The notes under the pieces were generated by a model. It worked only from the letters and a program-made list of their open reading frames with translations. It was not told the DNA's origin and did no database searches. Below, one piece after another: positions 291 to 38,733 of a stretch of DNA of 64,000 nucleotides. Position numbers and translations under genes: made by a program. Numbering within the stretch: position 1 is the stretch's first letter; every line of letters starts with the position of its first letter. Source of the DNA: Bryoerythrophyllum caledonicum (taxonomy: Eukaryota; Streptophyta; Bryopsida; Pottiales; Pottiaceae); assembly GCA_963971425.1 (NCBI GenBank), contig OZ020514.1, positions 16,311,218-16,375,217 of the forward strand. Direction: 5' to 3'.

Positions 291-997
291 CTAGACCACT
301 TCAGTTGATGACGGAGAAGATTCAGGTGAAATAAATCTACAAGTTTGTTGGTCCCACGATTGAGAGCATCCTTTTACTATATTTTCACCTACTTTAGAGC
401 GTCTAAGAACAGAACCATCAGTAAATCCGGAAAGGGGATTGGCCCGCACATATTGAGGTACAGAACAAAGTGAAGCCATCATACTCGACAGCCACGGACG
501 CAGGGTCTGGCGGAGGAAGTTGTCATCCATATCACCAGCCCACGTAGGTGGGTGAATAGCACTGAACTCGTCATTCAGGAGATTCTTCTCAGGACTATCG
601 TCAATAAGCAACGTCAGGCTGGGGTCGATGAAATCATGGTCCCTTGCGAGTTTAGAGAGGTCCTTCAGCATGTACCTCTTCGTAGGATGGTCCACTCTAG
701 GATAAGTGGACTTCGTTGTATCATCTTGCGACAAGACTATAAGCTGATCTCGCGTCAGTTTAGTATCACGTAGAAGTGCTGTGACCATATCATCCACATT
801 ACGGGACATCGCACAACTCCATATGACCACATTAGCCTTACTACGCAAACACTCTAGAAAACGGCCGCCGTCGGGTCTAGGAGTGCAGATGCGGTTAAAG
901 CCAGGCCTGTGAACTAAAAATCCATTTAAGTCCACGACGACAGTGTACCTTGGTACCCTTCCTGTGGATTCCCGAGGTGCTCCGGGCTCAGCTGCTC
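291..997 (-). CDS. U1 gene, FCP1/NIF-type HAD phosphatase domain exon
   Basis: This exon has the FCP1/NIF-type fold known from RNA polymerase II CTD phosphatases and plant relatives. Seen: motif I as TVVVDLNGFLVHR, motif II as NVVIWSCAM, and motif III as LTLLIDDSPEKNLLND followed by AIHPPTW. The first Asp of motif I is present, but the second (general acid) position is Asn, as in plant sequences with a DLNG motif, so activity is uncertain. The likely acceptor is near 997 (AGCAG before CTGAGCC). This frame ends at TAG 291-293, although a splice to the next exon is also possible. The exon at 58348-59036 is its paralogue. The fold call is firm; substrate and role are unknown. Confidence 0.75.
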
Positions 998-1087
998 AAA
1001 TTGGACCACCTGAAATATGAAGCAAAATCCAAAGGTGAGCCATACTATATCTGACAAAACATCGGGCTTTAGAGAAGGGCGTCTCAA

Positions 1088-1171
1088 GTAGAGGATCGAG
1101 CGAGCACCCGATCCCACATAAATATCGGGCGCGCTCCCGATCACCACTAGAAGATCGGGCGCGCCCTCGAT
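1088..1171. repeat. GATC palindrome cluster in U1 intron
   Basis: Three consecutive near-palindromes of the form GATCGGGCGCGCTCCCGATC, about 30 bases apart, lie in the intron upstream of the FCP1 exon. The matching intron of unit U2 (59037-59501) carries a different palindrome, with core GTAGGATCCTAC. Confidence 0.85.
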
Positions 1172-1465
1172 CTCAACAGGAAGAATTCGTCACACGAATT
1201 ACTTAGAATGAAACATGGGCATGGAATCTCACCTTCAATTATTGACGCCGGAACGGCACGTCCGCTGGACAAATGACGCTTTGAAATGCTTCCGGTTTCG
1301 GTAAAAGTTGCGGCAGGCTTTGACACGCTTCCACTAGGAGCAACAACTTGAAGATCGTTTCTTGCATCCGCACCAGTGGATCCTAGATGACCAAGTGCAG
1401 ATTAGGAGCGATGAATATAAGAGTCAGAAGAAAATGAACAAACAACCAAAGCAAGAGATACCTAC

Positions 1466-2230
1466 CTGGGAGAAGGGGATTTCCTCGAGCAATTGAGGAG
1501 CACTCCAAGGAAGACGAGACATCAACTTGAATCACGGCTCTTTCAGAGATTAACCCGTCATGGACTTCCGCAACGGCAGATTCTGATTGAATGTTAGCGG
1601 GGCTAAGAGGCTTCAATTCATCATCGAACATGCCTTCGTAAGCCCCTTCATTGACTACCGGTTCGCAAGTTGAATCCGTCAATGAAAGATTACGCCCCGG
1701 AGTAGAAGGTAGTTGCAGAGACCGTAAGTCAGTAAGTGCGCCGACAACCACCACCTCCACTTCAGTTGGGCCTTCCTCAGGGTCGGCCACGTGACCATCA
1801 GTGGCGTCGCCAGATGAAGACTGGTAGGACTAATCTACCGGCATCAAAGCCGGCCCGGACAAAGGAGACTCCACGACTGCGGGAGCAGTAACTGCTGCTG
1901 GGACACGTACAATCCTCGCCGTTATCCTCGTTCTAGAACCGACACCTTGGACTCTCATTGCCCTTTCATGATCGAACGGAATACGAATTGGCTCCCTTGG
2001 TGGGGATTCAGGCCTGTTATACCACCTCTCTTCCGCCTCCAGTACCTCACGCTCCTCATCCGACTCTCTCACCCTTCGTTCTTCCATTGTCTCCTCCCTT
2101 GCTTCGTCTTACCCAGCTCCGCCAACCTCAATTCCATGCCCTGACAACATATCGACGTGCATATCCTCCACGGACTATGGGGTGTCTTGGGTGGGTACTG
2201 AAGAAGGAGATACATCGCGAGGGTCGGCGG
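1466..2230 (-). pseudogene. U1 gene, charged linker exon(s), interrupted by in-frame stops
   Basis: The region encodes a low-complexity, charged linker. On the minus strand one frame runs from about 2230 to a donor at 1466 (CCCAG then GTAGGT), through MEERRVRESDEEREVLEAEE and a Pro/Val/Ala-rich part. It has in-frame TAG near 2176, TAA near 2115 and TAG at 1830-1832; Gln codons that lost a C would explain all three. The counterpart is the exon at 59502-60271 (shared RTR-I/MT-- segments and a LSPANI/FSPPRNV segment before the donor). No known domain is recognised. Exon limits upstream of 2087 are uncertain. Confidence 0.45.
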
Positions 2231-2299
2231 ATATTTGCTGCGCAAAGGACATACATTCAGTGGACGGACATACAAATGTCGACAATCATACCCAAAGCC

Positions 2300-2490
2300 C
2301 AAAAAGATCGGACTGGAAGATCCGGTGCGCACCCGATCCGGACCATGAGATCGGGGTAGCGCCCGATCCGATCAGAAAGATCCGGAGCACAACAAATCTG
2401 ATAGACGACAACGAAGGCAAACCCGGTCCCATCGGCGAGATCGGGAGCGCACTCGATCCGGTCAAAGAGATCGGGGGCGCACTCGATCTC
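2300..2490. repeat. Degenerate 30-bp GATC palindrome ladder in U1 intron
   Basis: Six or so units with GATC(C/G)GG-GCGC-C(C/T)CGATC cores are spaced about 30 bases apart in the intron downstream of the acidic exon. The same intron of U2 holds the different palindrome at 60457-60476. Confidence 0.8.
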
Positions 2491-2773
2491 AATATACCAG
2501 AATTTTAGAGTATGAAAATTAAACATTACAAGAGAAGCAGACGTTGTTGCAGTCAATGATTGCGTATTCAGAATAAGGGGGTGGCTGTACCGAATTCGAG
2601 GACGGCGATCCACTCGTGGGGTAGGCGCCGACACTCCATGCTGCCTGCAAGAAGGAGGACTACTGAAGATATAAACACTACCAAAGATGTATTACCACGC
2701 ACTACATTAATTGGTTCAAAGTCAATTATAAAGTGTTTAAGTCCATGGAAAAAAAGAAGTCGATGGGTCATAC

Positions 2774-3391
2774 GTTGCCACCAATGTCAGTGTTGTCCCG
2801 GCCAAGATGCAACTGTCGCCTGGTGTCAGAAAATAAAACGCTTGGTTCGGCCTCGGTCTCGGATGGATGGCGCTGAGTGAGGTCTGCTTCGTCGGCGGGC
2901 CGACTCACATCAGGTCCAGGTAGCGCAGCGATCGGATTTCCCATTCGGGTGCGTCTTCCATCCGATCCACTGTCGTTGTTGTCCTCTTCCTCAGCGCCCT
3001 CTTCAGTACGATCCGGATCAGGTATCTCCCCTTCCCTATTGTCGTCCTCTTCGTCGTCACGGTCCAATTCATTGTCTTTCTCCTCGTCACTCTCAGGGCC
3101 ACCGTGGTCAGTGCCAGCTTCATCTTCTGAGGATTCTGATGGAGTCTTTTGTCGTACACTCTTGAGAACGATTCTTCTCTTTGGCTGTACATTTTGGGCA
3201 GGTGCGCGTGAAACGACCAGGGACTTCTTTCTAATTCTCTTTGCCTTGGATAGCCTCTTCTTAGACGGCGGAGCCTCAGGGGGGGTAAGGGCTAGAACCT
3301 GACGTGCATCCCAAAATTTCTTTGCATTGTCAAAAGCAAAGGTCTTGTCTGCTGCTGTGAACACAACCTCCACGACTCTAGCGCCTTTGGT
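2774..3391 (-). CDS. U1 gene, exon with Rossmann beta-2 strand followed by acidic linker
   Basis: The acceptor is TTGCAG before ACCAAAGG at 3391, and the donor is GTATGA at 2773. The first codons (TKGARVVEVVFTAAD) continue the methyltransferase-like fold of the upstream exon. They look like the strand ending in an acidic residue that follows motif I in class I methyltransferases. After a basic patch (KKRLSKAKRIRKK) the product becomes strongly acidic, with EDEAG, DEEKDNELDRDDEEDDN and EGAEEEDN. Such tails are common in chromatin-associated proteins, so a nuclear role is plausible. The exon at 60798-61205 is the paralogue, with the same acceptor and donor context and the same order of basic then acidic segments. 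Confidence 0.65.
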
Positions 3392-3494
3392 CTGCAAGAA
3401 AATACCCGTTTCAAACGTAAGGTATATGATTAACGCAGCTAAAAACATCAAGAGCAAGAGTGATAATGATGAAAAATGATGCCATCATTCTTAC

Positions 3495-4952
3495 CAGGGA
3501 TATCCAAGTAATCGCAGAACCAGCTCCGACGTTGATAATAACAACGTTGCGACGGCAAAGTACACCAATCAATTTGTCCACCACGCCAACGTTGAAGTTG
3601 GCACGCCCAACCTGATCACAACTCGGTCCGGAGACGCTCTCAAAGTCCTTTGCATTCCACACAGGTTGAAACTGCAGATCGGGCCCGAAGTAGTCTCGGA
3701 AGCTTGCCTCCGCTACGTTGCCATCGGTCCGCCCGAAGACGAAATTGAAGTAGAGGGGTAAGGTTGGCTCAACCGATAGCGGTTTGGCGAACTGCTCGGC
3801 CGGAGAAGTGAGGTACACTGTCAACGTGTAATCCCAAACAGGGCCTTGAAGATAATTCCGATCTTTATCATTGAGGAAGTTCACCAGCACAACCAACCCA
3901 ACGCGGTCAGTTATAAACACACGTGGACTTCGCGCTCTCCTAAAATTCTGCTTATCCCTACTCTCCATTGCCGTGAAGCATTTCACCATCTCTTGCTTCA
4001 GGACGGATGCATCTCCAGATCCGCACTGCCCTCGGTTGACGAAGTAGTAAATGTAGATCTGCTTCAAATTCTTCGCATTGAAGGTCTTCAGGCTCTTGTC
4101 TGTCAAGATATTCTTTACATCACCGTTTTTTCTATCCAGCGACCTGACACGATAGTAGGATTCCATAAGCTCTTCAGGTTCTTCTCTAGATGCGCCACGA
4201 CTACCACCAGCACTATCCCTCTCACTGTCCCTCAGCTGTTGAAACATAGTCTTGAGCAAGGGTGCAATGTCATCTATCTTGTGAGAGGGGTTCAGATTGG
4301 CAGTCCGCTTCGAGAAGAATAATTGACCACCTTCATCTTGACTCAATCTGTTGTACCAGCTGAGAAGTACATCCTCGGTAATCTTGTGAGCAGCAGAAAA
4401 TTGCTCGTACTCCTCCTCCTTATACGGTTCTTCTACCATCTTCTGTGGAAGCGGCTTCCCCTCAAAGTGGTGCATGAGCTCGTTCTTCAACACTCTCAGC
4501 CTCCTTTCAATAAAGCAAAGGTCCTTCAGACTCCTCAGAACAGCCGGCTTCTTAAGTCCTTTCGAGAATTTCATAGAAATCTCTTTCCGCATCACCATGT
4601 CGGCCATCTTTTGACACTCATCATTGGTCAGTCCATACAGATCCCGAAGATCGTTCTTGTGCAGCGCCCGAGACTCCCTGTTCTTCGCCTGCTTCGAAGC
4701 GCGACTTTTTGATGATGAAGCTGCAGCGTCGTCGTCGTCGTCATCGACACTCGCAGAAAGGACTCCTGGAACATTGTTCCAAGGATTGGGAAGTAGTCCG
4801 TCGATGTATAACTCCTCAATTTGGACCCATTGTTGGAAGAGAGGATTCGGAACGTACAGCAACGGAAGTTTCGGCGCTCCACTACTTTTATTGAGATCCA
4901 AAGCGCCTGGTTTGTTTTCTGAGAAACATGCTTTGAGCTTCTCAACAAACGC
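3495..4952 (-). CDS. U1 gene, long exon with putative beta-class methyltransferase C-terminal region
   Basis: An uninterrupted 486-codon exon lies between acceptor TTTCAG (4953) and donor GTAAGA (3494). Near the N-terminus it has DDDDDDAAASS, then a helical basic region. Towards its end it reads FPLYFNFVFG-like strands, a helix ending VDKLIGVL, and NVVIINVGAGSAITWISL, continuing across the intron into GARVVEVVF. That order (helix, then hydrophobic strand with G-x-G-S, then helix, then strand with an acidic end) resembles motif X, I and II of N6/N4 DNA methyltransferases with the beta circular order. No DPPY-type catalytic motif is seen upstream, so it may be inactive or the resemblance may be fortuitous. 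The paralogue is 61339-62787. As a coding exon it is well supported; its function is not. Confidence 0.6.
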
Positions 4953-4997
4953 CTGAAAGCATGAAATGAAGTAAGTACACTCTCGATTGAGGGAGAA

Positions 4998-5017
4998 GAT
5001 CGGGTGCGCCCCCGATC
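4998..5017. repeat. Single GATC palindrome in U1 intron
   Basis: GATCGGGTGCGCCCCCGATC lies inside the short intron 4953-5109. The homologous U2 intron (62788-62968) carries two palindromes of the GTAGGATCCTAC type instead. Confidence 0.85.
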
Positions 5018-5109
5018 CTGGAGTAAAGCGAAAACAACGAATAAAAGGAATTGGAAAACTTAGTGGAATTGATGAACCTCAATAAACTAAATGGAATAGT
5101 ACGACTTAC

Positions 5110-6482
5110 ATTGAATTCTTTGGTGTTTAGGGCACCATTCCGTTTGGGCAACGGGTTGCCGAGCTCGTTCCACCATCTCCGAGCTGTTTGCAACTGATTT
5201 AAATAATTGCCTTCCTTCCGATTACCAGCAAAGTCTTGGTTTAGGAACTTGCTGAAGTACGTGAGCTGGTTGAATGACTCCTTTTTTGTCCACAATATTG
5301 TGACAAAGTACTTACGGGCGTTGGCGGCGTCGTGATCACTAAGGCTACCTTCTTCGAGGAGCTGTCTGTGAGCTGCGACACCATGTTGGCCTCCTATAAT
5401 ACAGAAGTGCGTATCCCTGTTGATTTGATCCCGTCTAGGTTGTTCGTCAAATAATTCCACAGCTCCGTCTTCCGTGTTTGGGTCATCAACTGGAGTAGGA
5501 GGTCCCCTTGTCGGCATCACGAAGACATGTTGCAGCGCTGCTTTGAAGGAGGGAATCGTCCTCTTCTGCGTGACTAAAGCTTCCACTCGCGACGGTAAAA
5601 GAGGCCGGTACACGATTGTTGGTGTCGGGGCCCTATGCAGGTTGTCAATGTCCACGAGGAGGTCCGGTTCGTTCGGATCGTCCTTGATCTTGAAAGGGCG
5701 CTGGCCAAATATGTGCAATGGAGCGAACTCCGCCTCGAAAAAGTCGCGCAACTGAACGAGCTCCTTCGTTGTGAATTTCGCAACAGCGGAGTGGGTAAGA
5801 TTCACCGCTTTCGCCAATGTCATTCTGTCAGCAGTTTTGGCTTTGGGTTTCTTCCTGGCCGATTTTTTCTTGATGGGTTCCTCTGCCACAGCCGGACCGC
5901 CGCCCGTTGAAGCTCTCTTCCGCTTTGGAGGGGTGATCGGAGGACGCCGCTGGCTTTCTTCCTCTCCCACGTTTTTTGCAACGACACCCGCCATCAACTC
6001 AGCCCAGACATCACACAAGTCACTTGCGTCGACACTATCGCCATCGATAAAGAACCCCAACGGCTCCACATCTTCGCAAAGCGAATAATTTAATCGCGCG
6101 GTGGGTAGAACTAAACCAAACATTTTTGTTGCTCTTGCTGATGCTACATATTCAGTGACGATCGCAAGGACGTGTTCTGCCGATTGAATTTTGTACAGTC
6201 TCAGAACCTGACAGTCCTTGGTCGGTAATAAGCGTGGCGGGCCGTTGCGCTGTCTTCTGTCCTCAGTCAGGATGACCGGTGCGACGAAGGTTCTACCCTG
6301 AGCCTCTTCTATCCCCAACTCCAGACCCCATTCCTTGGTCATGTCGGCAAGGTAAAAAGCGACAGGCTGCGAATCTGGGTCTCCTTGATACGGCATTGTG
6401 AGCAATCTGCAACTGATCGCAGGTTTAAGCCTCACCGGGAGCAACTCCTTCGGCACATTCTTTAACTCTGCACGGTTGGCTC
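5110..6482 (-). CDS. U1 gene, exon with ParB/sulfiredoxin-like motif and NLS-like tracts
   Basis: The exon starts after acceptor TTTTCGCAG near 6482 and ends at donor GTAAGT (5109), with an open frame throughout. An N-terminal globular part is followed by basic tracts PPKRKRAS and KKKSARKKPKAK (about 5850-5940), which look like nuclear localisation signals. Next comes LAKAVNL...LHIFGQ. Near 5352-5402 is IIGGQHGVAAHRQLLEEG, which resembles the ParB/Srx signature (hydrophobic-hydrophobic-x-G-Q-H-x-x-x-A). The usual Arg after His is Gly here. In bacteria and phages such domains can precede DNA methyltransferases, which fits the next exon. The U2 counterpart (62969-63723) has lost this core. Coding status is strong; the ParB assignment is moderate. 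Confidence 0.6.
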
Positions 6483-6569
6483 TGCGAAAATGAACGAAGG
6501 AAAAAGCTATTAGGAACAGGTCACATGATTCTGAAACTGCAATCCAAATTTGAGACTTATGCCAGAGAA

Positions 6570-7500
6570 CGAGAGCGCAGCAGAGATCGGGAGCGCTCTC
6601 GATAACTTGGTAGATCGGGCGCGCTCCCGAACTTGGGGGATCGGGTGCGCTCCTGAACTTGGGGATCGAATGGGGGATCGGGTGCGCTCCCGAACTTGGG
6701 GATCGAATGGGGGATCGGGTGCGCTCCCGATATTTTAGTGGAGATTGAGCGCGCACCCGATCTCGACTAGGGTATCGGGCGCGCACCCGATCCCAACCCA
6801 GACATCGGCTATGCCCCTGAGTTCGACTGCCATCGGGTGCACTCCCGATATTAATTACAAGATCGGGCGCGCTCCCGATCTATACGAGGAGATCTCGAGC
6901 TCTCTCGACCGCTACTTTCTTCATCGAATGCACTCCCGAGATCTCTTATGAGATTGTGGGAGCAAACTATCTCCTAGTGTAGATCGAAAGCGCTCCCGAT
7001 CTTATTGCAAATCGGGCGCGCTCCCGATCATCACTACGAGATTTTGAGAGCACCTAATGGCCAGTAGAAGATCGGGTGCGCTCCCGATCTTTTAGTGGAG
7101 ATCGAGCGAGCTCTTGATCTCGTCTAGGGTATTGGGCGCGCACCTGATCCCAACCGAGGCATCGGGTGCGCGCCTGATGTTGACTGCATTTAGGACCAAC
7201 ATGCATATACTTGGCAAAAAGTACTACTAACTGGTTCAGCCACTCTGGCACAATATTCGGCTTACTGATCACCACTGCCATCGGGTGCGCTCCCGATTTC
7301 AACTTGGAGATCGGGCGCGCTCCCGATCTATAGGAGGAGAGCTCAAACGCTCTTGACCGCCTTTTTCTTTACTGTGGGATCAACCTATCACGAACTAGAT
7401 CGGGTGCGCTCCCGATATTATTGCAGATCGGGCGCGCTCTCGACTAGGGTATTGGGCGAGCACCCGATCCCATCCGAGGCATCGGGTGCGCACCCGATGT
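6570..7500. repeat. Palindrome-rich 5' region of U1 gene
   Basis: About twenty copies of GATCGGGTGCGCTCCCGATC and one- to four-base variants lie at roughly 30-base spacing across the U1 5' region. A stretch of tandemly duplicated units around 6620-6730 shares the words GAACTTGGGGATCGAATGGG. The two arms of each copy are complementary, so each could form a hairpin or bind a symmetric protein. Confidence 0.9.
7216..7279 (-). CDS. Candidate first coding exon of U1 (copy a)
   Basis: On the minus strand an ATG-led short frame reads MAVVISKPNIVPEWLNQ, just upstream of the palindrome region. A second, diverged copy, MAGSISDSNLAPDWLNQ, lies at about 7638-7690. Conservation at protein level (N-x-x-P-x-W-L-N-Q) suggests a duplicated 5' exon. 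Donor sequences after LNQ are poor in both copies, so splicing to 6482 cannot be confirmed. Confidence 0.35.
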
Positions 7501-7513
7501 CGACGGCGTATAT

Positions 7514-7588
7514 ACGATCACATAACATACGGTCACATAATATACGGTCACATAATATACGGTCACATAATATACGGTTTCATGTATA
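7514..7588. repeat. 15-bp tandem repeat
   Basis: Five head-to-tail copies of ACGGTCACATAATAT lie here. The first and last are slightly diverged and the middle ones are identical. Confidence 0.95.
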
Positions 7589-7637
7589 TGGAAGTATATG
7601 CACATTTGAAATATGAATGAGCAATGAAATACTTATT

Positions 7638-7690
7638 GGTTCAGCCAGTCCGGCGCCAGATTCGAGTCACTAATCGACCCTGCCATCCTC
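7638..7690 (-). CDS. Candidate first coding exon of U1 (copy b)
   Basis: This is the diverged duplicate of the short exon at 7216-7279, reading MAGSISDSNLAPDWLNQ. It lies upstream of the palindrome-rich block and downstream of the fold-back element. Either copy could be the real start of the U1 gene. Confidence 0.3.
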
Positions 7691-8154
7691 GCCGATTATA
7701 AACGCTGCGGAGTATTGACCTGATTCAATAGATTGCCTCAGCATCGATGATTCCAGACCCAATACACAATTCCTATACAGCAAACCTCGAAACCATCTAA
7801 AGCATTGGACTAGGAGAATACAAATCGATTATCTTCGAATGAATATGATGAAACCCGAAAGCAGTTCACTACATTCTAATCAATCAACTAACTTAGTATT
7901 GACTGAAATTCAAAATTTCAACACACCATCTCAGCATATCAAGATGGCTAGAAAATCTGCTGGATGCAAGCCATTCACTGAATTCTAACTAGCAGAAACC
8001 AAGGCAATTTCCTGGAATTGAACTAAGTGAAACTAAGAAGCAGCTCACTTAATTCTTACTAGAATACTACCATAATTTTGAATGAGGAATGAGACATTCA
8101 ACATACCAAAATATCGAGCTCTGATCTTCTTCTTGCTAGTATGTCGTGAACGCC
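7691..8154. other. Non-coding spacer between U1 and fold-back element
   Basis: Apart from short AT-rich stretches with repeated words (AACTAAG, GAATTCTAACTAG) nothing is recognised. No coding frame is supported. Confidence 0.5.
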
Positions 8155-9085
8155 GTCCACCTTGTTCACCCAAGGCGCTCACAAAAGGTCACAGAACTTC
8201 GCTCCTCCTCGCATGCACACGCACCTCTTCAATGCGGCTCTTCTGTTCAACCTGTCTCTACCATGGACGAAGCGTTCTCCAGTTACGAGCACAATTAAAA
8301 ACACAAAGATGGACCAACCGCGAACAAAGACAGAAGAGAAAGACTGAAGAGAGACCGCGGTGAAGGCGATGAGGAAGACAGTGAAGAACTTCAAAGGCGA
8401 TGAGGAAGACAGTAAAGAACTACCACAGAAAATGAAAACGGCTATGGCGAAAAGGCTGTGGCGAGATCGAGCAAGGGAGGAGGAAATGAGAATGAGGATG
8501 GGGAAGAGGAAGGTGAGCGTGGCATGTGAGAGTGACGGTAGACTAGCAATCGATTGCTGTAGGCTGAAGTTGACGTCGTTCACTTCCTCATGATGCTTGA
8601 ATACTTATGGCAACGAGAAGTAATTAACTCGGTTAATACTCAACACCCGGCTAATACATCCAAAATATGTACCCTGAGTGGTGATTGGTATTTTCTTGTG
8701 TTTACAACCAAAGGCAATATTATCTTACAAACACAGGGCCTTCTAATAAACTTCTAAAGGCCTAAGGCAATTTCAAACCATGAATCCAATAAAAATGAAA
8801 AAATGAAAAAAATATATATATATATATTATATATGTATATTTCATTATATATATGTACATATGTATATTATATTCATATATATACATATATAAAATTATA
8901 TTTATATATAAATAGATATATATATATGTATATTTATATCTTATTTTATTTTTTTGATGGAGCTCATATCAAGGACAATCAACTATAGAGAATTTTTTTA
9001 AAATATAATTAAGCAACCAAATGTTATTTTCTTTTAAAAACCATATATCCTAAACCCTGCACCCAAAATCCTAGACCCTATCCAA
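8155..9085 (+). repeat. Left arm of fold-back element
   Basis: This arm is the inverted counterpart of 13635-14578. It includes a (TA)-rich stretch at 8810-8950 and ends inward with CCTAAACCC-type telomere-like words. Open frames in it mirror frames in the other arm, as expected from duplication rather than coding. Confidence 0.85.
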
Positions 9086-9423
9086 GATACAACTATACAT
9101 ACACAGATGATATAAATATATACACAACATACAATGATATCTCCGTACGATATATATCTATTTATACAACATACAATGATACATATATACAACATACAAT
9201 AATTATATATGAATACAATTTATATATTTATATATATATCCAACATACAACTATACATACACAGATATATATATACAACACACAATTATATCTCCATACG
9301 ATTTATATCTATTTATACTACATACAATGATACATACATACATTTTGTACATATATACAACATACAATAATTTTATATGTTTACATATATCCAACATACA
9401 TGTCAACTATACATACACAGATG

Positions 9424-9424
<1 letters not shown>

Positions 9425-9465
<41 letters not shown>
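9425..9465. repeat. (TA)n microsatellite
   Basis: This is a pure TA dinucleotide run within the minisatellite. Confidence 0.95.
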
Positions 9466-9466
<1 letters not shown>

Positions 9467-9572
9467 ACATACAACATACAATTATATCTCCATACGATTT
9501 ATATTTCCATACAATTTGTACATAATATATACAACATACAATAATTATATATCGATATAGTTTATGTATATA

Positions 9573-9750
9573 TAGAAGAAGAAGAAGAAGAAGAAGAAGA
9601 AGAAGAAGAAGAAGAAGAAGAAGAACGCCGGTCCCGGAGAGACCGGTGTGAATAGAGTGTCTAATCGCACCTCCACTAAGACCATGCCCACCAGGCAAGG
9701 AATTAGTAGTACGGGGCTTCTTCCCCCTCTCGAGGGTAGACACTATACAA
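9573..9750. repeat. (GAA)n plus hairpin module, copy 1
   Basis: About 17 GAA triplets are followed by a GC-rich hairpin (CCGGTCCCGGAGAGACCGG) and a conserved tail with CACCACTAAGACC-like and GGGCTTCTTCCCCCTCTCGA words. Related copies occur at 11838-11900 (truncated), 12369-12512 and, inverted, 12815-12895. Confidence 0.85.
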
Positions 9751-10782
9751 ACACAGATGCTATATATATATATATACAACATACAATTATAGATTCTCGA
9801 TACGATTTATATCTATTTATACAATATCCAATTATACATACATACCTTTTGTACATATATACAACATCCAATAACTATATACCAATATATTTTGTATATT
9901 TATATATATATCCAACATACAACTATACATACATAGATATTATATATATATACAACATACAATTATAGATTCTTGCTACGTTTTGTATCTATTTATACAA
10001 TATCCAATTATACAAACATACATTTTGTACATATATACAGCATACAATAATTATATATTCATACAGTTCATATATTTATAAATATATCCAACATACAACT
10101 ATACATACACAGATGTTACATACATATATATACAACACACAATTATATCTCCATATGATTTATATCTATTTAGACTACATACAATGATACATACATACAT
10201 TTTGTACACATATACAACATACAATAATTTTATATGTTAATATATATCCAACATACAACTATACATACATAGATGTTACATATATATATATACAAGAGAC
10301 ATCTATATCTCGATACGATTTATATCTATTTATACTACATACAATGATACATACATACATTTTGTACATATACAACATACAATAATTTTATATCGATACT
10401 ATTTATATATATATCCAACATACAACTATACAGACATAGATATCATATATATATACAACATACAATTATAGATTCTCAATACGATTTATATCTATTTATA
10501 CAATATCCAATTATACATACATACATTTTGTACATATATACAACATACAATAATTATATATGGATACAATTTATATATTTATATATATATCCAACATACA
10601 ACTACACATACACAGATATATATATATATATATACAACACACAATTATATCTCCATACGATTTATATCTATTTAGACTACATATAATGATACATACATAC
10701 ATTTTGTACATATATACAGCATACAATAATTTTATATGTTTACATATATTCAACATACATGTCAATTATACATACACAGATG

Positions 10783-10784
<2 letters not shown>

Positions 10785-10843
<59 letters not shown>
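10785..10843. repeat. (TA)n microsatellite, Helitron target
   Basis: A run of about 29 TA dinucleotides ends where the Helitron at 10844 begins. Confidence 0.95.
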
Positions 10844-10846
<3 letters not shown>

Positions 10847-11716
10847 TACTACTAAAATCATAATCCGCGCAGTGAACCACGCAGGGATCAATCGCGCAGT
10901 CAACCTAGCAGTGAACTATAGGAACGGTGCAGTCAACCGCGCAGCCAACCGCGCAATGAATCATGTTACCTTTTTTTTTTAATAAAGTTTGTAATATAAA
11001 AACTACATTAAAATGGTTGGACTAATGAGTTGCAAAGCATCAGCTTGAGTTTTTGAGTGTGACAAATATGGAATTGTGTGTTGCAATTTGTGCTCTTGAT
11101 TACAAATTTGATGTTCGAAATATTTTTTGAGTTAAGCACTAAAAGACTGAATTGTAAATTATGAGTTGTAAACTTGGAGTGAAAAAGTTGTGAAGTTGGA
11201 GTTGTGATCTTGGAGGTTGGCATACAAAGTTGGAGTTGCAAAATTGCATATTCGAGTTGTGGAGATTGAAATTACAAGTTTTGAGGTGAGATTGCAAGTT
11301 TTGAGATTGTGATTGCAAGTTGAGTTTGTGGGTCAGTGAAATTGAGATTGTAATTGCAAATTGAGCTTGTGGGTGTGTGAAATTGAGATTGTAATTGCAA
11401 ATTGAGTTTGTGGGTGTGTGAAATTTGCATTTGGGTGTTGCAATTTGTGCTTATCCAAAATAAATTTGAAACTCTTGATTACAAATTTGACGTTCATAAC
11501 ATTTTTGAAATTCCATGTTAAAATGCAAAAAATCTAAAACCTAATTAATTTTTTTAATTCTATTCTATTACATTATTAAAATTCATGCATAGGTTTCAAA
11601 GACATATTTATATTTTATGTAGATTTTTATAATTTTTTTTTTTTAATTATTTGTGATACAAAAACTACATTAAAATGGTTGAACCAATGCGTTGCAAAGC
11701 AAGCGCCAACTGCTAG
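10844..11716 (+). mobile_element. Non-autonomous Helitron, 873 bp
   Basis: The element starts TCATACTACTAAAATCATAA immediately after an A and ends CTAG immediately before a T, in TA-repeat flanks. That is the Helitron rule of insertion between A and T without target duplication. A hairpin (GCGTTGC, AAA loop, GCAA-g-CGC with one bulged base, 11689-11706) lies ten bases before the end, as expected for the 3' terminator. A second copy of this 3'-end region occurs internally at about 10985-11050. No RepHel frame is present. Confidence 0.75.
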
Positions 11717-11837
11717 TATATATATATATATATACAACATACAATTATATCTCCATACGATTTATATTTCCATACAATTTGTACATAATATATACAACAT
11801 ACAATAATTATAAATCGATAGAGTTTATGTATATATA

Positions 11838-11900
11838 GAAGAAGAAGAAGAAGAACGCCGGTCCCGGAGAGACCGGCGTGCATAGAGTGTCTAATCGCAT
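11838..11900. repeat. (GAA)n plus hairpin module, copy 2 (truncated)
   Basis: Five GAA triplets and the CCGGTCCCGGAGAGACCGG hairpin are followed by only the first part of the conserved tail. Confidence 0.85.
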
Positions 11901-12368
11901 ATATATACAACATACAATTATAGATTCTTGATACGATTTATATCTATTTATACAATATCCAATGATACATACATATATTTTGTACATATATACAACATAC
12001 AATAATTATATATCAATACAGTTTATATATTTATATTTATATCCAACATACAACTATACATACACAAATGTTACATACGTATATATATGCAACACACAAT
12101 AATATCTCCATACGATTTATATCTATTTATACTACATACAACGATACATACATACATTTTGTATATATATACAACATACAATAAATTTATATGCTTATGT
12201 ATATCCAATATACATGTCAACTATACATACACAGATGTTACATATATATATATATATATATATACAACATACAATTATATCTCCATACGATTTATATTTC
12301 CATACAATTTGTACATAATATATACAACATACAATAATTATATATCGATACAATTTTTGTATTTATAG

Positions 12369-12512
12369 ATGAAGAAGAAGAAGAACGCCGGTCCCGGAGG
12401 GACCGGCGTGAATAGAGTGTCTGTTCGCACCACCACTTAGACCATGCCCACCAAGCAAGGAATTAGTAGTATGGGGCTACTTCCCCCTCTCGAGGGTAGA
12501 CACTATACAAAC
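12369..12512. repeat. (GAA)n plus hairpin module, copy 3
   Basis: The order matches 9573-9750: GAA triplets, a CCGGTCCCGGAGGGACCGG hairpin, and a tail ending GGGTAGACACTATACA. Confidence 0.85.
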
Positions 12513-12814
12513 ACAGATGTTGTATATATATATATCATACAACAGACAATTATATCTCCATACGATTTATATCTATTTCTACAATATCCAATGATACATA
12601 CATACCTTTTGTACATATATACAACATACAATAACTATATACCGATACATTTTGTATATTTATATATATATCCAACATACAACTATACAGACACATATAT
12701 TATATATATATATATATACAACATACAATTATAGATTCTCAATACGATTTATATCTATTTATACAATATCCAATGATACATACATACATTTAGTACATAT
12801 ATACAACATATGGG

Positions 12815-12895
12815 TATGGTCTTAGTGGTGGTACGAACAGACACTTTACTCATCATGCTGGTCCCTCCGGAGTGGCGTTCTTCTTCTTCTTCTAA
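12815..12895. repeat. (GAA)n plus hairpin module, copy 4, inverted
   Basis: The module is read in reverse: GGTCTTAGTGGTGGT, then a degraded hairpin (GGTCCCTCCGG), then TTC triplets. It marks the switch to inverted minisatellite units. Confidence 0.8.
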
Positions 12896-13259
12896 ATATA
12901 TAAACTGTATTGATATATAATTATTGTATGTTGTACATATGTACAAAATGTATGTATGACATATACTCCGATATTGTATAAATAGATATAAATCGTATCG
13001 TGAATCTATAATTGTATGTTGTATATATATATATATAATATATGTGTCTGTATAGTTGTATGTTGGATATATTATATAAAAATACATAAATTGTATCGAT
13101 ATATAATTATTGTAATCTGTATATATGTACAGATTGTATGTATATATCATTGTATGTTTTATAAATAGATATATATCATATGGAGATATATATTGTATGT
13201 ATAGTTGTATCATGGATATCTTTTGAATCCTTTTCTTTTTCAACCCTTACTTTTCAAAT

Positions 13260-13500
13260 CCCTTGTTTTTTTTTATAAAATTTGATTTTCAAATGTTTGA
13301 TCTCTACCTTTTTACCTTTTCACCATTTTTCCAACTTTTTACTTTTCAAATCTTTACTTTGTCTCACTCTTACCTTTTCAAACCCTTACTTTTCCTATCC
13401 TTTACTTTTACAATCCATTACTTTATTTTATCCATAAATTTTGAACTTTTACTTCTTCAATCTCTTATTTTTCTAACCCTTACATTCCAAAGCCCTTACT
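13260..13500. repeat. Degenerate CTTTT(A/C)CTTTTC-type tract
   Basis: The stretch is pyrimidine-rich, with the recurring words CCTTACTTTTC and TACTTTTCAAA. No gene is supported. Confidence 0.6.
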
Positions 13501-13690
13501 TTTGGGTCCAGGGTTTTGGGTCTTGAGTTTAGGGTCTATGGTTTTGGATCCAGGGTTGAGGGTCTATGCTTTAGGGTCCAGGGTTTAGAGTTTAGAATTC
13601 TGGGTCCAGGGTTTAGAGTTTAGGGTTCTGGGTCCAGGGTTTAGGGTCTAGGATTTTGGGTGCACGGTTTAGGATCTATGGTTTTTATAT
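13500..13690. repeat. Degenerate TTTAGGG-like tract
   Basis: Repeated variants of GGGTCCAGGGTTTAGGGTCTA resemble plant telomere repeats interspersed with GTCCA. It forms the inner edge of the right fold-back arm and mirrors the shorter CCTAAACCC words at 9050-9080. Confidence 0.75.
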
Positions 13691-14578
13691 ATATAATAAC
13701 ATTTGGTTGCTTAACCCCTAAAGGCCCAAGTGCCCCTCGGGGGGACGATTTGATTTCGGGCAGGTTCCTTAAATTGGAAAAAAATATATATTTTAAAATT
13801 CTCTATAGTTGATTGTTCTTGATATGAGCTCCATCGAAAAAATAAAATTAGATATAAATGAATATATATATATATATAAATTGATATATAATTTTGAATT
13901 ATTGAAATTCTTATTGGATTCATGGTTTGAAATTGCCTTGGGCCTTTAGGAGTTTATTAGAAGGCCCTATGTTTGTAAGATAATAATTCCTTCGGTTGTA
14001 AACACAACAATAAACCAATCACCGCTTAGGGTACATATATTAGATGTATTAGCCGGGTGTTGAGTATTAACCGGGTGAAGTACTTCTCGTTGTCATAAGT
14101 ATTCAAACATCATGAGGAAGTGAACGAATTGCTCTCCTGTTCTAACATCATGAGGAAGTGAACGACGTCAACTTCAGCCGACAGCAATCGATTTCTAGTC
14201 TACCGTCACTCTCACATGCCACGTTCACCTTCCTCTTGCCCCCTCATTCACATTTCCTCCTCCCTTGCTCGAGCTCGCCATAGCCACTCTTCCTTTTCGC
14301 CATAGCCGTTTTCATTTTTTGTGGTAGTTTTTTACTGTCTCCGCATCGCCTTTGAAGTCATCACCGCGGTCTTTCTCTATTCTTTCTCTTCTGTCTTTGT
14401 TCACGGTTGGTCCATTGTTGTGTTCTTCCTTCTCATCTTCGTGCTTGTAACTGGAGAGCGCTTCGTCCATACTAGAGACAAGTTGAACGGAAGAGGCGCA
14501 TTGAAGAGGTGCGTGTGCATGCGAGGAGGAGCGATGAGGTGGTGACCTTGTGTGGGCTCCTTAGGTGAGCAAGATGGA
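13635..14578 (-). repeat. Right arm of fold-back element
   Basis: This is the inverted copy of 8155-9085. It includes the GGGCCTTTAGGAGTTTATTAG segment and the GCGTGTGCATGCGAGGAGGA outer part. About 55 extra bases near 13716-13770 (CCCCTAAAGGCCC...) are missing from the left arm. Confidence 0.85.
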
Positions 14579-14872
14579 AATTCTTATTGGATTTAAGGTA
14601 TGGTCCTCTATTGGCACTCGGATTTTAGCATGCATAAATTTTGACATGGATGTCTGGTCGATTGTCTCCGTGACATCTTCTTGCTCAATCACTTCTCATT
14701 CAGTCATCTTGATCAATCTCGTGCAGGAGCAAACTGTATCACTCACGGGTCGTCCATAGACGTTTGTAACATAAATTGGGTTGCTACCGTATATACGTAT
14801 CCATATATCCTTACATATACGTATTTCCATACGTTCAAAGGATTTTTAGAAATTCTGAAATCGGGCGCTCAG

Positions 14873-15600
14873 GGATCGGGTGCGCTCCCGTTCCTGTGAG
14901 GGGGGTCATGTGCGCCCCCGATATGTTTTAATGGATCGGGTGCGCTCCCGATCTCATGAGGGGGATCGGGTGCGCCCCCAATATGTTTTAATGGATCGGG
15001 TGCGCTCCCGATCTCATAAGGGGGATCAGGTGTGCCCTCGATATGTTTTAATGGATCGGGTGCACTCCCGATCTCATGTGGGGGATCGGGTGCGCTTCCG
15101 ATCTCTTGCGGGGGATCGGGTGCGCTCCCGTTCTCGTGTGGGGTATCGGCTGAGCTTCCGATCTCTTTTGGGGGATTGGGTGCGCTCCCGATCTCATGTA
15201 GGGGATCGGGTGCGCTTCCGATCTCTTACGGGGGATCGGGTGCGCTCCCGTTCTCGTGTGGGGAATCGGCTGAGCTTCCGATCTCTTTTGGGGGATTGGG
15301 TGCGCTCCCGATCTCATGTAGGGATCGGGTGCGCCTCCGATCTATTGCGGCGGATCGATTGCGCTCTTGTTCTCATGTGGGCAATCGGGTGCACTCCCGA
15401 TCACCTTCGGAGGATGAGGTGCCTTCCCCATCTCCCAGTGGTTATTGAGTGCGCTCGCGATCGCGACTTGGGGATCGCGTGCGCTCCCGATCTCCTAGTG
15501 GTGATCTGGTGCGCTCCCCTTCCCCGGTATAATCAGGTGCGCTTCCGATCTCTCGGTGCTCATCGGATGCGCTCTCCATCTCTCAGTAGGGGACGGGTGC
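14873..15600. repeat. 30-bp GATC palindrome ladder upstream of DUF7869 gene
   Basis: Units begin GGATCGGGTGCGCTCCCGAT at exactly 30-base steps from 14873 to about 15323 (15 units), then with slippage to 15600. Alternate units end in CTCATG-GGG or ATGTTTTAAT, giving a 60-base higher order at the left end. The core is the same palindrome found in U1 introns. Confidence 0.95.
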
Positions 15601-15663
15601 TCCATGTCGCTCTGCGTTGATTTAAACTCACATTTTCTTCTCCACTTACTTTTGTCATTTCGC

Positions 15664-16988
15664 AGGGATAATCGAATCGTGTGGAACTGTTTGTTCCAGC
15701 AGACCGTGATCGATAACTACTTCACCTACGCCCCCCGTTGATTTCACGAATCTTCCCCCAGGGCTGCGCTCCGAATTCGTTTCGGGCAAGGCAGTCTCCC
15801 TTGTCTACCCCTGTCATGGTGTGGTTGGAGAGGGCGTTGTTATTGAGGCTGCTCCAACCGGTCACTGGCTTGGTGTCAACATTCATCTTCACGTGGCCAA
15901 TTTGACGCTAATTAGCGTGTCTGAGATCATCCAAGAGGCCCGTTATCTTCTCATGCACCCACAATAGGACGGCATCTCCGTCCTGGCTGATTCTGTTGGT
16001 AGGACAGTCCTTTGGATGGTAGAGTGCTTAGTCCTTCCATCGAAGGATGTTCCTGTTGATCTACACGGTGATCCTTCTTCTGAATCCCAAATCCCTCTTC
16101 CTTTCTTACCTCAGATCGAGTGGGTGGGTAAGGTGGTAAAGCGGTATAACAGCGACGGTATTCTAGCGGCCACTGGCAGGGTCAACTGCTCCCTAGCTAA
16201 TGAGCCATTCCAGAATATTTCCCTAGGCAAGGGAAATGTTGGCGTCACGGTGTTGGACGTTTTCATTGGGGATCGTGGTGACATGATGAGTCATCAGAGT
16301 TGGCCAATTTCGGAGTGCAAATTCGACGGTGGGCGCGGTCTAAGCAAGACACTCGATCACTTCATTCAACTTCCGGAACCAGCGGACCCAAATGCGCACC
16401 TCGGTGGTCGTCCCAAAGCACCGTACCGGTTTATCCGTCGCCGGAAGCGCACTGACGAGAAGCTCGCCGCGTACTCTAAGAAGACAATGCTGGAAGCGAT
16501 TCAAGCGGTCACTTCGGAGTCATGTTGCCCTACTCAATGCGTCCGCCTAATCCGTCCTGAGGATACCCTCCTAATCCGACAGAAGTTCTGGTTGAAGAGT
16601 TTCGACGATCGACAAGATTATACTAGATCTGTCGGAGGTCAATTCCGTTACTTGGACCACACTCGGAAAAGACAGTATGTCACATTGCTTGGTCGGGATG
16701 TCTGCGCAACAGCATGGTACAAGATTCACGGTATCGCAAAGTCGACATTTCACGAATATATTGACCAGTATAAACTAGGCATCATCTCATCAACACATGG
16801 GAACAAAAGCGTCAAACGCCCCCGCCTCGGTACTGTCCAGGCTATGGGTTCAATTACAACAATCATCAATTAGAACGCTGATCAGATGCCTCATCAGATG
16901 CGGTCGACTGTGCCAGGGCGGATGGACACACTCAAGTTTCTGCCGTCCGGACATAGCTGGAAAAAGATCCAGGCCGACGCTAATGAGG
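15664..16988 (+). pseudogene. DUF7869-type transposase gene, 5' exon with TNP1/DUF8039-like domain
   Basis: The acceptor CATTTCGCAG (15663) opens a frame continuing to donor GTATTG at 16989. Residues from about 15740 to 16020 resemble the plant TNP1/DUF8039 fold (GKAVSLVYPCHGVVGEGVVI ... VGRTVLW) found in En/Spm-type proteins. A second region, RPKAPYRFIRRRKRTDEKL, and a later helical part lead to NADQMPHQMRSTVPGRM, typical of the entry to the transposase core. Three in-frame stops, TGA near 15709, TAG near 15964 and TAG at 16871-16873, fit single C-to-T changes of Arg (CGA) or Gln (CAG) codons. The gene is therefore decayed. Confidence 0.65.
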
Positions 16989-17029
16989 TATTGTATTGTG
17001 TTCACGCTACTCTATTTATAGCAAGTCCG

Positions 17030-17060
17030 AGAGAGATCGGGTGCGCACCCGGTCTCTTGA
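17030..17060. repeat. GATC palindrome in DUF7869-gene intron
   Basis: GATCGGGTGCGCACCCGGTC lies between the 5' exon and the core exon. It shows that the U1 palindrome also sits within introns of this gene. Confidence 0.85.
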
Positions 17061-17116
17061 GTCCGATCCTATGTCCCATGGAATTATTTAGCTAACATTT
17101 TCTTCACTTTCGCAAT

Positions 17117-19128
17117 GTATGATGACTTCATCGATTTGCACACATGGGAGTGCTTGGGTTGCCTATTTCTCGGATTAATATATTATGCACATTGTTGCAG
17201 ACAAATACGGAGTTAGGGTTGCCCACGATATCGCAGTCAGCTGTTAGTAGAATGAAGAGGGATCTCTTCAACAATGTTGCGGTGAAGCCGGTTGGTAGTT
17301 CTTTTGCGAAGTGCACCGTTTGCGACACTCTACAGCGTTTATTAACAGGTCGGTGAAGGGCTCTGCGGAATATGTTTCTTTTGTGAAACAACAAACTCAG
17401 CACCAGAACCTTCAAGCTTTGTGTAGGCGTGTGTACCATAGCTGGAGAGAGGAGTCCAAGTGCAATAAGGGAGAAATTCTTTGCATAATCCACGATAAGA
17501 TGGATACAGTGAAGACCGCAATCCCACGTATGCGAGTTGCCACGAAGTTCACTGCAGCTCTTGGACAACTTCCAATGAACGTCACTGGCACGGTCACTCA
17601 TGGTCATGGGGACGGCGCATATGCTCATTACTCCACTGACCTGTGGCCAGGAGACTCAAACTACACGATTTCGTCCATTGCAAAATTGCTTCGGCGTCTG
17701 GAAGAACCACCCATTCGTGTAACGGGCAAACTTTTTCCTTACGAGCCGGCAAACTCGATGTTTGCTGCTATGCTAAGAGGGAAGTCCAGATGTATGGACC
17801 TCCTACCTCGAGTGGATACCGACCACTCCACTCAGGCGGTCCCTCTTCCAACAAATTTGTACTTGCAGTTGGACAACTCAGCAAAGGATAATAAGAACTA
17901 GTATCACTTCGCGTTTTTATCCATGTTGACTTATCGGGGGGTGTTCAAGGAAATCTAGGTTGGATTCTTGTTGGTAGGGCACACCCATGAGGATATAGAT
18001 GCTTACTTCAGCCACTTGTCCAAGAAGTTGAAGAGTGAGAATACCTATGTAGTCGCGGATTTGATGTCGTCCTTCATGAAGCCGCAGGATTTGAGTTTCA
18101 TGCCCGAGTTTGTTCAAGAGGTTGCCGATTTCAAATCATTTGTGGAGGGCTATATACGTGATCGAGGTGACAGACTCGTTGGCACGAAAGATCAACACCT
18201 CTTTAAGTCCTACGTAGATGAAGACGGTTGGCCCATCATGCGGTATAAGGAAAATACAGTTGATGCACATTGGCTCCCTAGAAACCAACTTGGAGTTCGG
18301 TTTTGGAAGGAAGATGTTGACGGGAGACCCATGATACCTTCTCGTATGCCAACGCTTGTGCCTTTCAGGCGGTTGTGGGGAGACGAGGAGCCTTCCAAAC
18401 GTGGCAATCAAGTCAAGGCCGAAGAGAAGGCTGCAAAAGCGCTGGATAAGAAGTCTATGATTCAGTCTGGAATTCGCGCTTATATAGCATTCTGGGAGGG
18501 AGGAATGGTTAAGTGCGCTGGATGGAGAATGGCTATGCCGCCTTATATCGCTTACTGGAAAGGAATACTTGAAGAACTTGAAAAACCCCTTCCTCCTACT
18601 CCAGACGTGTTGGCAGAAGGCTTTTGGCCAAATCATGATTGGAGAGCGACGGTTCCAACTCCCTTGTGCCTCATTACTAATGGGAATGTCACACCTGAAG
18701 ATCAGGTACCTGAAGTTTTTTGCGGGTCATTCAAGGAGAGGCCGAAGGAAGCTTTGAATCCATGGCAGCATATTATAGCGGGATCATGGGTCCTCCTCCG
18801 TCCCTCTGACCCTGATATTTATTCTGTCTGGATGGGGAGAGCATGTTCATCTGTTAATAATGAGCAAGGTCACGAGGAGTATGGGAAATTTATCATTCAG
18901 TTCTGGGAGCCAAGAAACGCCATAAAGGAGCACAAGCAGAAGTATGCGGGATGCTGGGAAGCGACGTGGGTACCGGAGCCCGGTCGTCGTCCATGTCTTT
19001 GGGATTGTGACTGCGTCGTATATGCCTCTTGGTCAACTAAGGCAAATCCGAAGACACGGACAATTCCAGAAAGGGACCGAATTGTAGCGCTCGTTAACCT
19101 CGATGCTGCAAACACAGCTGATCCTTGA
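17117..19128 (+). pseudogene. DUF7869-type RNase H-like transposase core
   Basis: The core resembles the DUF7869 family, mobile-element proteins with a DDE-like RNase H fold. Seen in order are FAKCTVCDTLQ (17299-17335), CIIHDKMD with TAIPRM (about 17485-17530), HGHGDGAYAHY, LYLQLDN with KDNKN (17860-17900), and LLVGHTHEDIDAYFSHLSKK (about 17970-18030). The acidic residues of these motifs are the presumed metal ligands. A long C-terminal region follows, ending at TGA 19126-19128. Frame changes near 17310-17350 and TAG codons at 17899 and 17957, both where Gln is plausible, break the frame. The exon acceptor near 17117 is weak (CGCAA). It is transcribed away from the U1 gene. Confidence 0.8.
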
Positions 19129-19230
19129 TTGGTGCGCTTCCTATCTCTCGTGTGCGGATCGGGTGCGCTTCCTATCTCTTGTGTGCGGATCGGGTGCGCT
19201 CCCGATCTTGTGTGGGGGATCAAGTGCAAA
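19129..19230. repeat. GATC palindromes downstream of DUF7869 gene
   Basis: Three cores (GGATCGGGTGCGCT-CC-ATCT) lie just after the stop codon. Confidence 0.85.
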
Positions 19231-20534
19231 CTCAGCTGATCCTTGATTGGCGTAGTTTTTTCCCAACCAGATTGGAGGAGCCCTAGTTTTGTCGTCTTCT
19301 AGCCTGCCTCTATTAGGATTTCTTCAACGCGGTGGTTCATAGTATGTCCGAGGAATTTGAACGTTCATCTTGTACTTGAAAGACTTTATCCGAAATTTAC
19401 AAGGGTGATACTTTTAAGACACACATTTTCACCATCGCCTTATATTGCATCCACAAATAATAAAGCCTTTTCAAACACTTTTTGTTCTACTATAACTGAT
19501 TGTATGCTATGAATGTGTGACGCTTTAACTTCCAACCAATTGCTCTTTTGGTCTCCCACTTCGGATCGGGTGCTCGCGGGTAGAAGTCAGCTAGGGTTAC
19601 TCACTTTTGGGCAAAAAAAATATACCCTTCAGTATATTTTTTTGGCCAAAAAAACTTGATTTTGCCCAATTTTATGGAAAAAAAAGGTTTTTCTTAAGAA
19701 AAAATTATGTTTCAAGATGGATTTATGTATGATGTATCTGATTGGATAAGAAATCAAAGAAAAAATCAACATTGAGTCCTATTTTAGGAGCCTTGAAGAA
19801 ATATCTCAGTTTTTAGCAATAAAAGTGAAAATAAGTTTCCGTTTCAAAATTTTCAATTATAATATATGGACACATTATGGCATGAATGTGTCCCAAAATT
19901 TTTGAAGTGTTTAACTTCCTAGAACTCTCAAAATAAGTATATTTGGCAAAAGTCATATACTTGTGACATGTATATACTGATGAAAGATATACCTATATTG
20001 GCCAAGTCGTAAGTCAGAACTCAACATTTTTGAGTTTCCTAGACTTTAAATCAAGGCAATTATCACATTCCATCAATAGAATTCCAAGATCGATCGCACA
20101 TTTGCACTATGCAGCAAAAGAAGGTTCGTGACTCTTTCCAAAACCATTTGTGACACTATAAATATACCACCTTAGTGGACTTTCACCCTCCCCCTATTTC
20201 CTCGCCGGGTTCAGGTGCTCCCCCAATCTCCCAGTCCGGATCGGGTGCGCCTCCGATGTTTCCGTTTTAAATGCATGTACTATGCTTCGTATCGTTTGTT
20301 TCATTCTTCCAATCGCTTCTACTACTATCAACTTCTAATACATGTTTCATGTTTAATGCTTCAAGATAGGTGTTTCATGTTTAATGCTTCAAGTCATCAA
20401 TCCAGATCTCAAGGAAGAGCCCGTTGGATTGGGTGCTCCCCCTATACAATGAAGCAACCCACATGGTATATTATCAAATTAAATACGGACTTTGACCAAT
20501 CTGGACTTTTGAAAGTCCAAATTTAGTTAAATGT
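19231..20534. other. 3' flank of DUF7869 unit, non-coding
   Basis: No gene is seen. There is an AT-rich hairpin around 19610-19665 (GGCAAAAAAAATATACCC and TATATTTTTTTGGCC). Isolated palindrome remnants at 19563, 20205-20260 and 20425-20450 suggest the unit reaches about 20450. Its exact end is not visible. Confidence 0.5.
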
Positions 20535-20645
20535 CGCATGTATTTTCTGTTCGTATACTTTCTCTTCTTGAATTTATGGTGATTGAGTATCTTTTTGCTG
20601 TGAGGGAACAAGATCCATTGTGGTTGATGTATGGTGAAGTAAGAT
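20535..20645 (+). mobile_element. Gag-like element A', left fragment (target of A)
   Basis: This stretch matches the reverse complement of element A just inside its terminal domain (TTTTCTGTTCGTATACTTTC, GATCCATTGTGGTTGATGTA). It continues at 24215 once A is removed. A' is 5'-truncated at about 20535 and plus-oriented. Confidence 0.75.
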
Positions 20646-38704: not shown

Positions 38705-38733
38705 CACTACAAGAAAACCAGCCCAATGTGACT
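38705..38733 (+). repeat. Inner CACTA left terminal inverted repeat
   Basis: It begins CACTACAAGAAAACC and is the exact inverse of 49335-49363. Confidence 0.95.

Follow-up and report, generated by a model that had tools for sequence, protein, structure and literature searches.

Related transposon-like units in a moss genome carry different 20-bp palindromes in their noncoding DNA

Two related transposon-like units, U1 and U2, lie in a 64,000-nucleotide stretch of the genome of the moss Bryoerythrophyllum caledonicum (assembly GCA_963971425.1, contig OZ020514.1, positions 16,311,218 to 16,375,217 of the forward strand; hereafter the window, in whose coordinates positions are given). Each unit carries its own pseudo-palindromic 20-bp site, repeated in its noncoding DNA, and the word differs between the two. 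A sequence-only reading of this DNA had claimed that matching introns of U1 and U2 hold different, unit-specific palindromes; whole-window scans confirmed this, with four homologous introns carrying sites in both units. The explanation that we favour, and to which we give an even chance, is by analogy that a protein encoded by the element may bind the sites in a family-specific manner, with an effect of self-marking or anti-silencing.

1–20539: unit U1, resembling a terminal inverted repeat (TIR) DNA transposon and truncated by the window start; delimited by the gene A model, the range of sites and a right end common with the left end of U2
56727–64000: unit U2, truncated by the window end, with homologous genes A (broken) and B

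Results

Each unit carries its own palindromic word

Scanning the whole window with symmetric consensus words at up to 4 mismatches, we found 57 sites of the U1 word (GATCGGGNGCGCNCCCGATC), at 1094–20427, and 15 sites of the U2 word (GATCGTARGATCYTACGATC), at 56800–63922. With 5 mismatches allowed, the counts rose to 61 for U1 and 18 for U2, the latter including the U1 site at 6982. Under the stricter limit of 3 mismatches, the U1 word gave 75 strand-wise matches and the U2 word 11, each against 0.00 expected from 100 shuffles. When we searched the window for near-palindromes of 20 bp with 5 or more G or C, 87 overlapping matches came up, compared with 17 to 31 in 20 block shuffles; the U1 word accounted for 34 of the 87 and the U2 word for 12, and the other 41 were still above the shuffles, partly through other motifs. 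There were no mixed sites, U1 sites differing from the U2 word at 5 or more positions and U2 sites from the U1 word at 6 or more. The privacy of the words holds within this 64,000-nt window.

The sites were then placed relative to the following gene models. Exon edges are approximate for gene B, for the DUF7869 gene and throughout U2; the intron edges of U2 and those marked "about" come from protein alignments, sequence and splice signals rather than from a verified model.

2768–7281, minus strand: U1 gene A, exons 7281–7232, 6481–5110, 4952–3495 and 3391–2768
294–2245, minus strand: U1 gene B, with a NIF/FCP1-like domain at 294–995 (Pfam NIF, E 4e-14)
15930–19128, plus strand: U1 DUF7869 gene (Pfam DUF7869, 6e-13 and 8.4e-15), divergent from genes A and B
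60783–63666, minus strand: U2 gene A, with in-frame stops and without the segment matching U1 5695–5319 (about 125 residues)
57414–60279, minus strand: U2 gene B, with a NIF domain at 58495–59121 (Pfam, E 3e-16)

The palindromes of U1:

1094–1172: three sites, gene B intron 1004–1465
2319–2488: four sites at up to 4 mismatches and two decayed 30-bp units, gene B intron
4998–5017: one site, gene A intron 4953–5109
6585–7499: 21 sites within 4 mismatches, in the first intron and 5' region of gene A
14874–15580: array of 24 units, 22 of them within 4 mismatches, repeating every 30 bp apart from two slips and lying upstream of the DUF7869 gene
17035: one site, intron of the DUF7869 gene
19157–20446: five sites (19157, 19188, 20209, 20239 and 20427) in the 3' flank of the DUF7869 gene

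The palindromes of U2:

56800–58190: U2-type sites at 56800, 57175, 58017, 58097 and 58171
59294–59395: three sites, gene B intron 59038–59503
60457–60476: one site, gene B intron
61312–61331: one site, gene A intron 61206–61338
62832–62899: two sites, gene A intron 62788–62968
63791–63941: three sites, gene A first intron, placed by position

The introns with sites in both units (U1/U2) are 6482–7231 and about 63690 to the window end, 4953–5109 and 62788–62968, about 2246–2592 and 60280–60588, and 1004–1465 and 59038–59503. Within these matching introns the number and place of the sites differ between the units. U1 exceeds the size stated for it earlier, as its sites resume at 14874–15561, 17035, 19157–19188 and 20209–20427, past a nested insert.

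Not one site centre fell within the coding models, either in U1 (0 of 57, with 8027 of 13941 bp coding) or in U2 (0 of 15, with 4691 of 7251 bp coding). By hand calculation, the chance that all separate clusters (8 in U1, 7 in U2) are noncoding is about 0.001 for each unit. The U1 site at 7279 has a three-base overlap with the proposed ATG of gene A. Since sites lie in introns and upstream of the two divergent genes, they could also be intronic enhancer or promoter sites for a host transcription factor. Such a factor would favour one shared word, however, and homologous places of related units in this one window carry different words; we consider this explanation improbable.

The sites resemble protein-bound double half-sites

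Between clusters, the 20-bp core was 78% identical and the ten bases either side 28–34%; the core figure is inflated, the sites having been selected on the core, and less so for four hand-chosen arrays, in which all units including decayed ones gave core identities of 0.79, 0.68, 0.82 and 0.70 against spacer identities of 0.50, 0.44, 0.43 and 0.35. Among U1 gaps under 200 bp, 29 of 49 were exactly 30 bp. Because this register continues through decayed units in U1 and is absent in U2, the 30-bp spacing looks like an inherited trace of tandem duplication, and a selected spacing was dropped on the same grounds.

The register kept by decayed units would also suit a minisatellite, selfish or neutral, that slippage and gene conversion had spread and that only noncoding DNA tolerated; purifying selection on the proteins alone could then explain the absence of sites from exons. 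We regard this as unlikely: between clusters the spacers are near background while the 20-bp cores are conserved, lone sites without a tandem array lie in separate introns (4998, 17035, 60457 and 61312), and U1, U2 and the CACTA element described below show the same design with different words.

The two arms of the sites did not covary: in U1, 427 cells were complementary where 429.8 were expected (P 0.80), and in U2, 121 where 118.3 were expected (P 0.20). One-sided departures from the palindrome outnumbered two-sided ones by 85 to 9 in U1 and by 22 to 4 in U2. Positions 8 and 13 of the U1 word vary freely; they are complementary in 5 of 57 sites (9.5 expected) and most often both T (27 of 57); hence the U1 arrays keep one orientation. 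Palindromic sites could act as RNA or DNA hairpins (in splicing, as a small-RNA source or by extrusion), a reading that this arm-independence test, with no excess of compensatory changes, ruled out for practical purposes. Because the arms lack covariation, the sites fit a double half-site bound by a protein rather than a hairpin.

The sequence-only reading had also held that the GATC ends are kept, which is true of the consensus and not of individual sites: both ends read GATC in 20 of 57 U1 sites (one end in 29 more) and in 1 of 15 U2 sites (one end in 9 more). U1 is looser at its outermost bases (G 42/57, C 44/57), with A2, T3 and C4 well conserved, and U2 at its fourth and seventeenth bases (C 10/15, G 7/15), with a central GATC in 15 of 15 sites. 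The same reading had offered a GATC-based modification target as an alternative. The consensus ends, the presence of at least one GATC end in 49 of 57 U1 and 10 of 15 U2 sites, the well-conserved A2, T3 and C4 and the central GATC of U2 would agree with this, yet few sites have both ends and much of the conserved core lies outside GATC. Because intact GATC ends frequently disappear, in U1 through change at the outermost base and in U2 through change at the fourth, whereas central core positions are kept, we judge such a target very improbable.

Both words share GATCG...G..C...CGATC, amounting to 6 of 9 defined half-site positions (chance about 0.01, hand binomial), which suggests homologous reader proteins.

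The ends of the units are conserved while the words have changed

20512–20539, minus strand: right terminal repeat of U1, 28 bp
56727–56754, plus strand: left terminal repeat of U2, 28 bp

The right end of U1 matches the left end of U2, in inverse orientation, at 26 of 28 bases. Both ends of one copy never lie within the window, and no other copy of this repeat was found there at up to 7 mismatches of 26. We assigned the repeat to the U units because the homology of the neighbouring repeat family stops outside it, at 20540 (immediately beside the repeat) and at 56594 (leaving 132 bp before the repeat), and no copy stands at that family's other end. The possibility that the 28-bp end is part of the neighbouring family was rejected on this ground, and also because alignment scores of 61 and 53 are those of the family's own flank. 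Since their ends share 26 of 28 bases inversely, the U units look like a TIR transposon. We read U1 and U2 as two families of a single kind of such element that diverged long ago, with protein identities of about 38% for gene A (over the longest match) and 48% for gene B. This kind of element would be marked by the 28-bp end, a gene for DUF7869, a large protein of a novel type and a gene resembling FCP1/NIF. Because the end is conserved while the words have changed, the words are not simply an end-recognition signal.

A CACTA element in the window carries a third palindrome

38705–49363: CACTA element, complete by its ends, whose own palindrome (TRTGACTN6AGTCAYA) stands in the terminal regions and between frames

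The ends of this element (CACTACAAGAAAACCAGCCCAATGTGACT) match at 29 of the first 30 bases, and the flanking 3-bp duplication (TCT/ACT) is imperfect. At up to 3 mismatches, 35 of the 38 window matches to its palindrome lie inside the element (10.7 kb) and 3 in the other 53 kb. The commonest short gap is 31 bp (7 of 23 gaps under 150 bp). Among frames of at least 90 codons, which are frames and not gene models, 17 of 20 are without a site; 43248–43523 (plus), 43988–44284 (plus) and 44521–44889 (minus) hold one each. Judged by its sequence, the element is a repetition of the U pattern with a third palindrome.

In En/Spm, a CACTA transposon, dense family-specific arrays near the ends are bound by the element-encoded accessory protein TNPA and serve as accessory subterminal repeats, and the CACTA superfamily is known for subterminal repeats. 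The U palindromes might likewise be accessory transposase-binding subterminal repeats for a transposition complex, with the intronic copies as spill-over. Dense arrays flank both genes, some sites are close to the ends and the CACTA element of the window shares the design, but U1 has sites in five internal introns and the U1/U2 end repeat is nearly identical though the words have changed, and on balance we find this account possible but rather unlikely. Unlike CACTA elements, the U units lack a CACTA end and their sites also fill introns; in the CACTA element of the window, sites lie both near the ends and inside.

Gene products of the units

The four exons of U1 gene A are joined by GT-AG introns into an open frame of 1167 amino acids, whose sole stop is the final codon (spliced model). 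Its product would be a novel protein and is a candidate site-binding protein. In protein searches, the part at 5110–6480 had 3 relatives and the part at 3414–5078 had none among 7996 candidates scored; no Pfam or NCBIfam family was found above cut-off in gene A. By eye, its first exon and 5' region are duplicated (7232–7281 and about 7640–7690), the second copy apparently without a splice donor.

The DUF7869 gene of U1 is broken; by eye, it has in-frame stops at 17899–17901 and 17956–17958 and a frame shift near 17350. A search gave 54 relatives of its protein, which we infer to be the transposase.

In gene B of U1, the upstream exon (about 1466–2245) has three in-frame stops. A division of intron 1004–1465 into two introns and a small exon was dropped, since direct splicing preserves the frame (by eye). 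Gene B of U2 has a second, degenerate NIF-like domain at 57414–57980 (Pfam NIF 5.3e-05 for 57717–57980). FCP1/NIF-like domains are expected to carry the motif DxDx; because this position reads DLNG in U1 and in the first domain of U2, the predicted FCP1/NIF-like activity is doubtful in both units. A NIF frame had no match in a search against the PDB.

A Pfam scan of ten U1 and U2 frames gave only DUF7869 and NIF above cut-off, and Rfam gave no match at the gathering threshold. In a viral contig collection there was no match to the exact U1 or U2 words or to a gene A profile, and a DUF7869 profile found none in viral and genome contig collections.

Other repeats in the window

About 8150–14560: element nested in U1, with inverted ends

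This nested element is AT-rich and holds 150–180-bp repeats and a (TA)n run; at 13500–13685 it has a degenerate telomere-type repeat, TTTAGGG-like. This repeat and the CACTA ends would suggest plant or algal DNA.

The neighbouring repeat family, at 20540–25150 and about 52800–56594, has inverted repeats and related minus-strand frames, and related frames occur also at 30.1–31.8 and 35.7–36.5 kb. TCCGGA is found 34 times in the 4.7 kb of the 20.44–25.15 kb copy, partly in coding-like frames, and 11 times in the second copy. Because of that partial overlap with coding-like frames, this TCCGGA-rich family is only a hint of a further example of the own-motif design.

Discussion

The private motifs, their restriction to noncoding DNA, the sharp core edges, the independent half-sites and the absence of mixed sites are, taken together, best read as sites of a DNA-binding protein. 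The sequence-only reading had proposed such a protein and site, and that part holds as the best account of the form of the data; its conditional reading of the sites as parS-like, with ParB as the protein, is unsupported at the sequence level. The likeness to ParB-parS lies in the palindromic sites and in a GGQHxVAAH stretch of gene A, without the usual arginine, which we took to be faintly ParB-like. Gene A differs from ParB in having no ParB match by Pfam (up to E 10), NCBIfam or PDB sequence search, its profile against the PDB returning only Anamorsin (E 1.4 or worse). DUF7869, which had been considered beside the ParB-like region, lies in the separate, divergent plus-strand gene and not in gene A.

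The closest known logic, judged by distribution features, is that of VANC in the VANDAL transposons of Arabidopsis. As outlined in Hosaka et al. 2017 (PMC5735166) and Sasaki et al. 2023 (PMC10398659), VANC21 localises to introns and to intergenic and terminal noncoding regions of VANDALs and binds its motif in vitro. The same two papers give the VANC21 motif as nine bases, YAGTATTAY, spread by tandem repetition, and report other motifs in the targets of the related VANC6. On these accounts, the U units resemble VANDALs in having a family-specific short motif that is dense in introns and in intergenic and terminal noncoding DNA, in its spread by tandem repeats, in arrays of one orientation, in the different motifs of related families and in extra genes beside the transposase. 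In the window, the motif is private, dense in noncoding DNA and absent from the coding models, with tandem spread in the 30-bp arrays of U1 and a different word in U2. Set against the described nine-base VANC21 motif, the U site is a 20-bp pseudo-palindrome. The ten frames scanned with Pfam gave no MULE transposase, the transposase-like gene of the U units being that of DUF7869; their accessory genes encode the novel 1167-aa protein and the FCP1/NIF-like protein.

If the favoured reading is right, each unit would have spread a pseudo-palindromic 20-bp site of its own through its noncoding DNA, namely the 5' region, the introns and the subterminal parts. The sites would be bound by a dimeric protein that the element itself encodes, most probably the product of gene A, and this binding would label all of the element as "own" and thereby counter silencing by the host or drive the element's own expression in a VANC-like manner. 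The sites would multiply through tandem duplication of about 30 bp and turn over together with the specificity of the protein, so that related families would come to have different words at matching places. Such joint change of protein and site, which the sequence-only reading had called co-evolution, is plausible.

Several points weigh against this. The window offers two U copies only, both partly broken, and gene A of U2 has stops and lacks about 125 residues. Two of six comparable introns disagree, having sites in U2 only: 61206–61338 (none in U1 3392–3494) and about 57999–58353 (none in U1 145–332). Pfam, NCBIfam and PDB sequence searches recognised no DNA-binding domain in gene A; the ParB N-terminal domain was likewise not found by sequence, and the AlphaFold models (mean pLDDT 41.2 and 41.4) are too poor to judge the fold. 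Binding and an effect on expression are predictions, and the core identity carries the inflation described above. The observed/expected CpG ratio is 1.13 in the noncoding DNA of U1 (sites included), that is, not depleted, and 0.57 in the CACTA element; the U1 value gives no independent sign of methylation to oppose, and neither shows nor excludes it.

We found no paper on DUF7869, and literature listings that combined subterminal repeats, TNPA, palindromes, introns and anti-silencing included none with the U-type design. More tentatively, and with real doubt, private palindromic address codes may be a general strategy of the unrelated DNA-transposon superfamilies found here (DUF7869-type, CACTA and perhaps the TCCGGA-rich family), each placing its own word in noncoding DNA, to be read by its own protein in escape from silencing, with a change of word marking a new family.

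Sequence-specific anti-silencing with motif turnover has been described, in the accounts cited above (PMC5735166, PMC10398659), for the VANDALs of Arabidopsis. If the U units and the CACTA element follow this logic, but with different proteins and with palindromic words that are longer, the self-marking of noncoding DNA would be a convergent strategy of transposons. In that case U1 and U2, with their near-constant end and swapped words, would provide a direct test case for the joint change of a DNA-binding protein and its dispersed sites.

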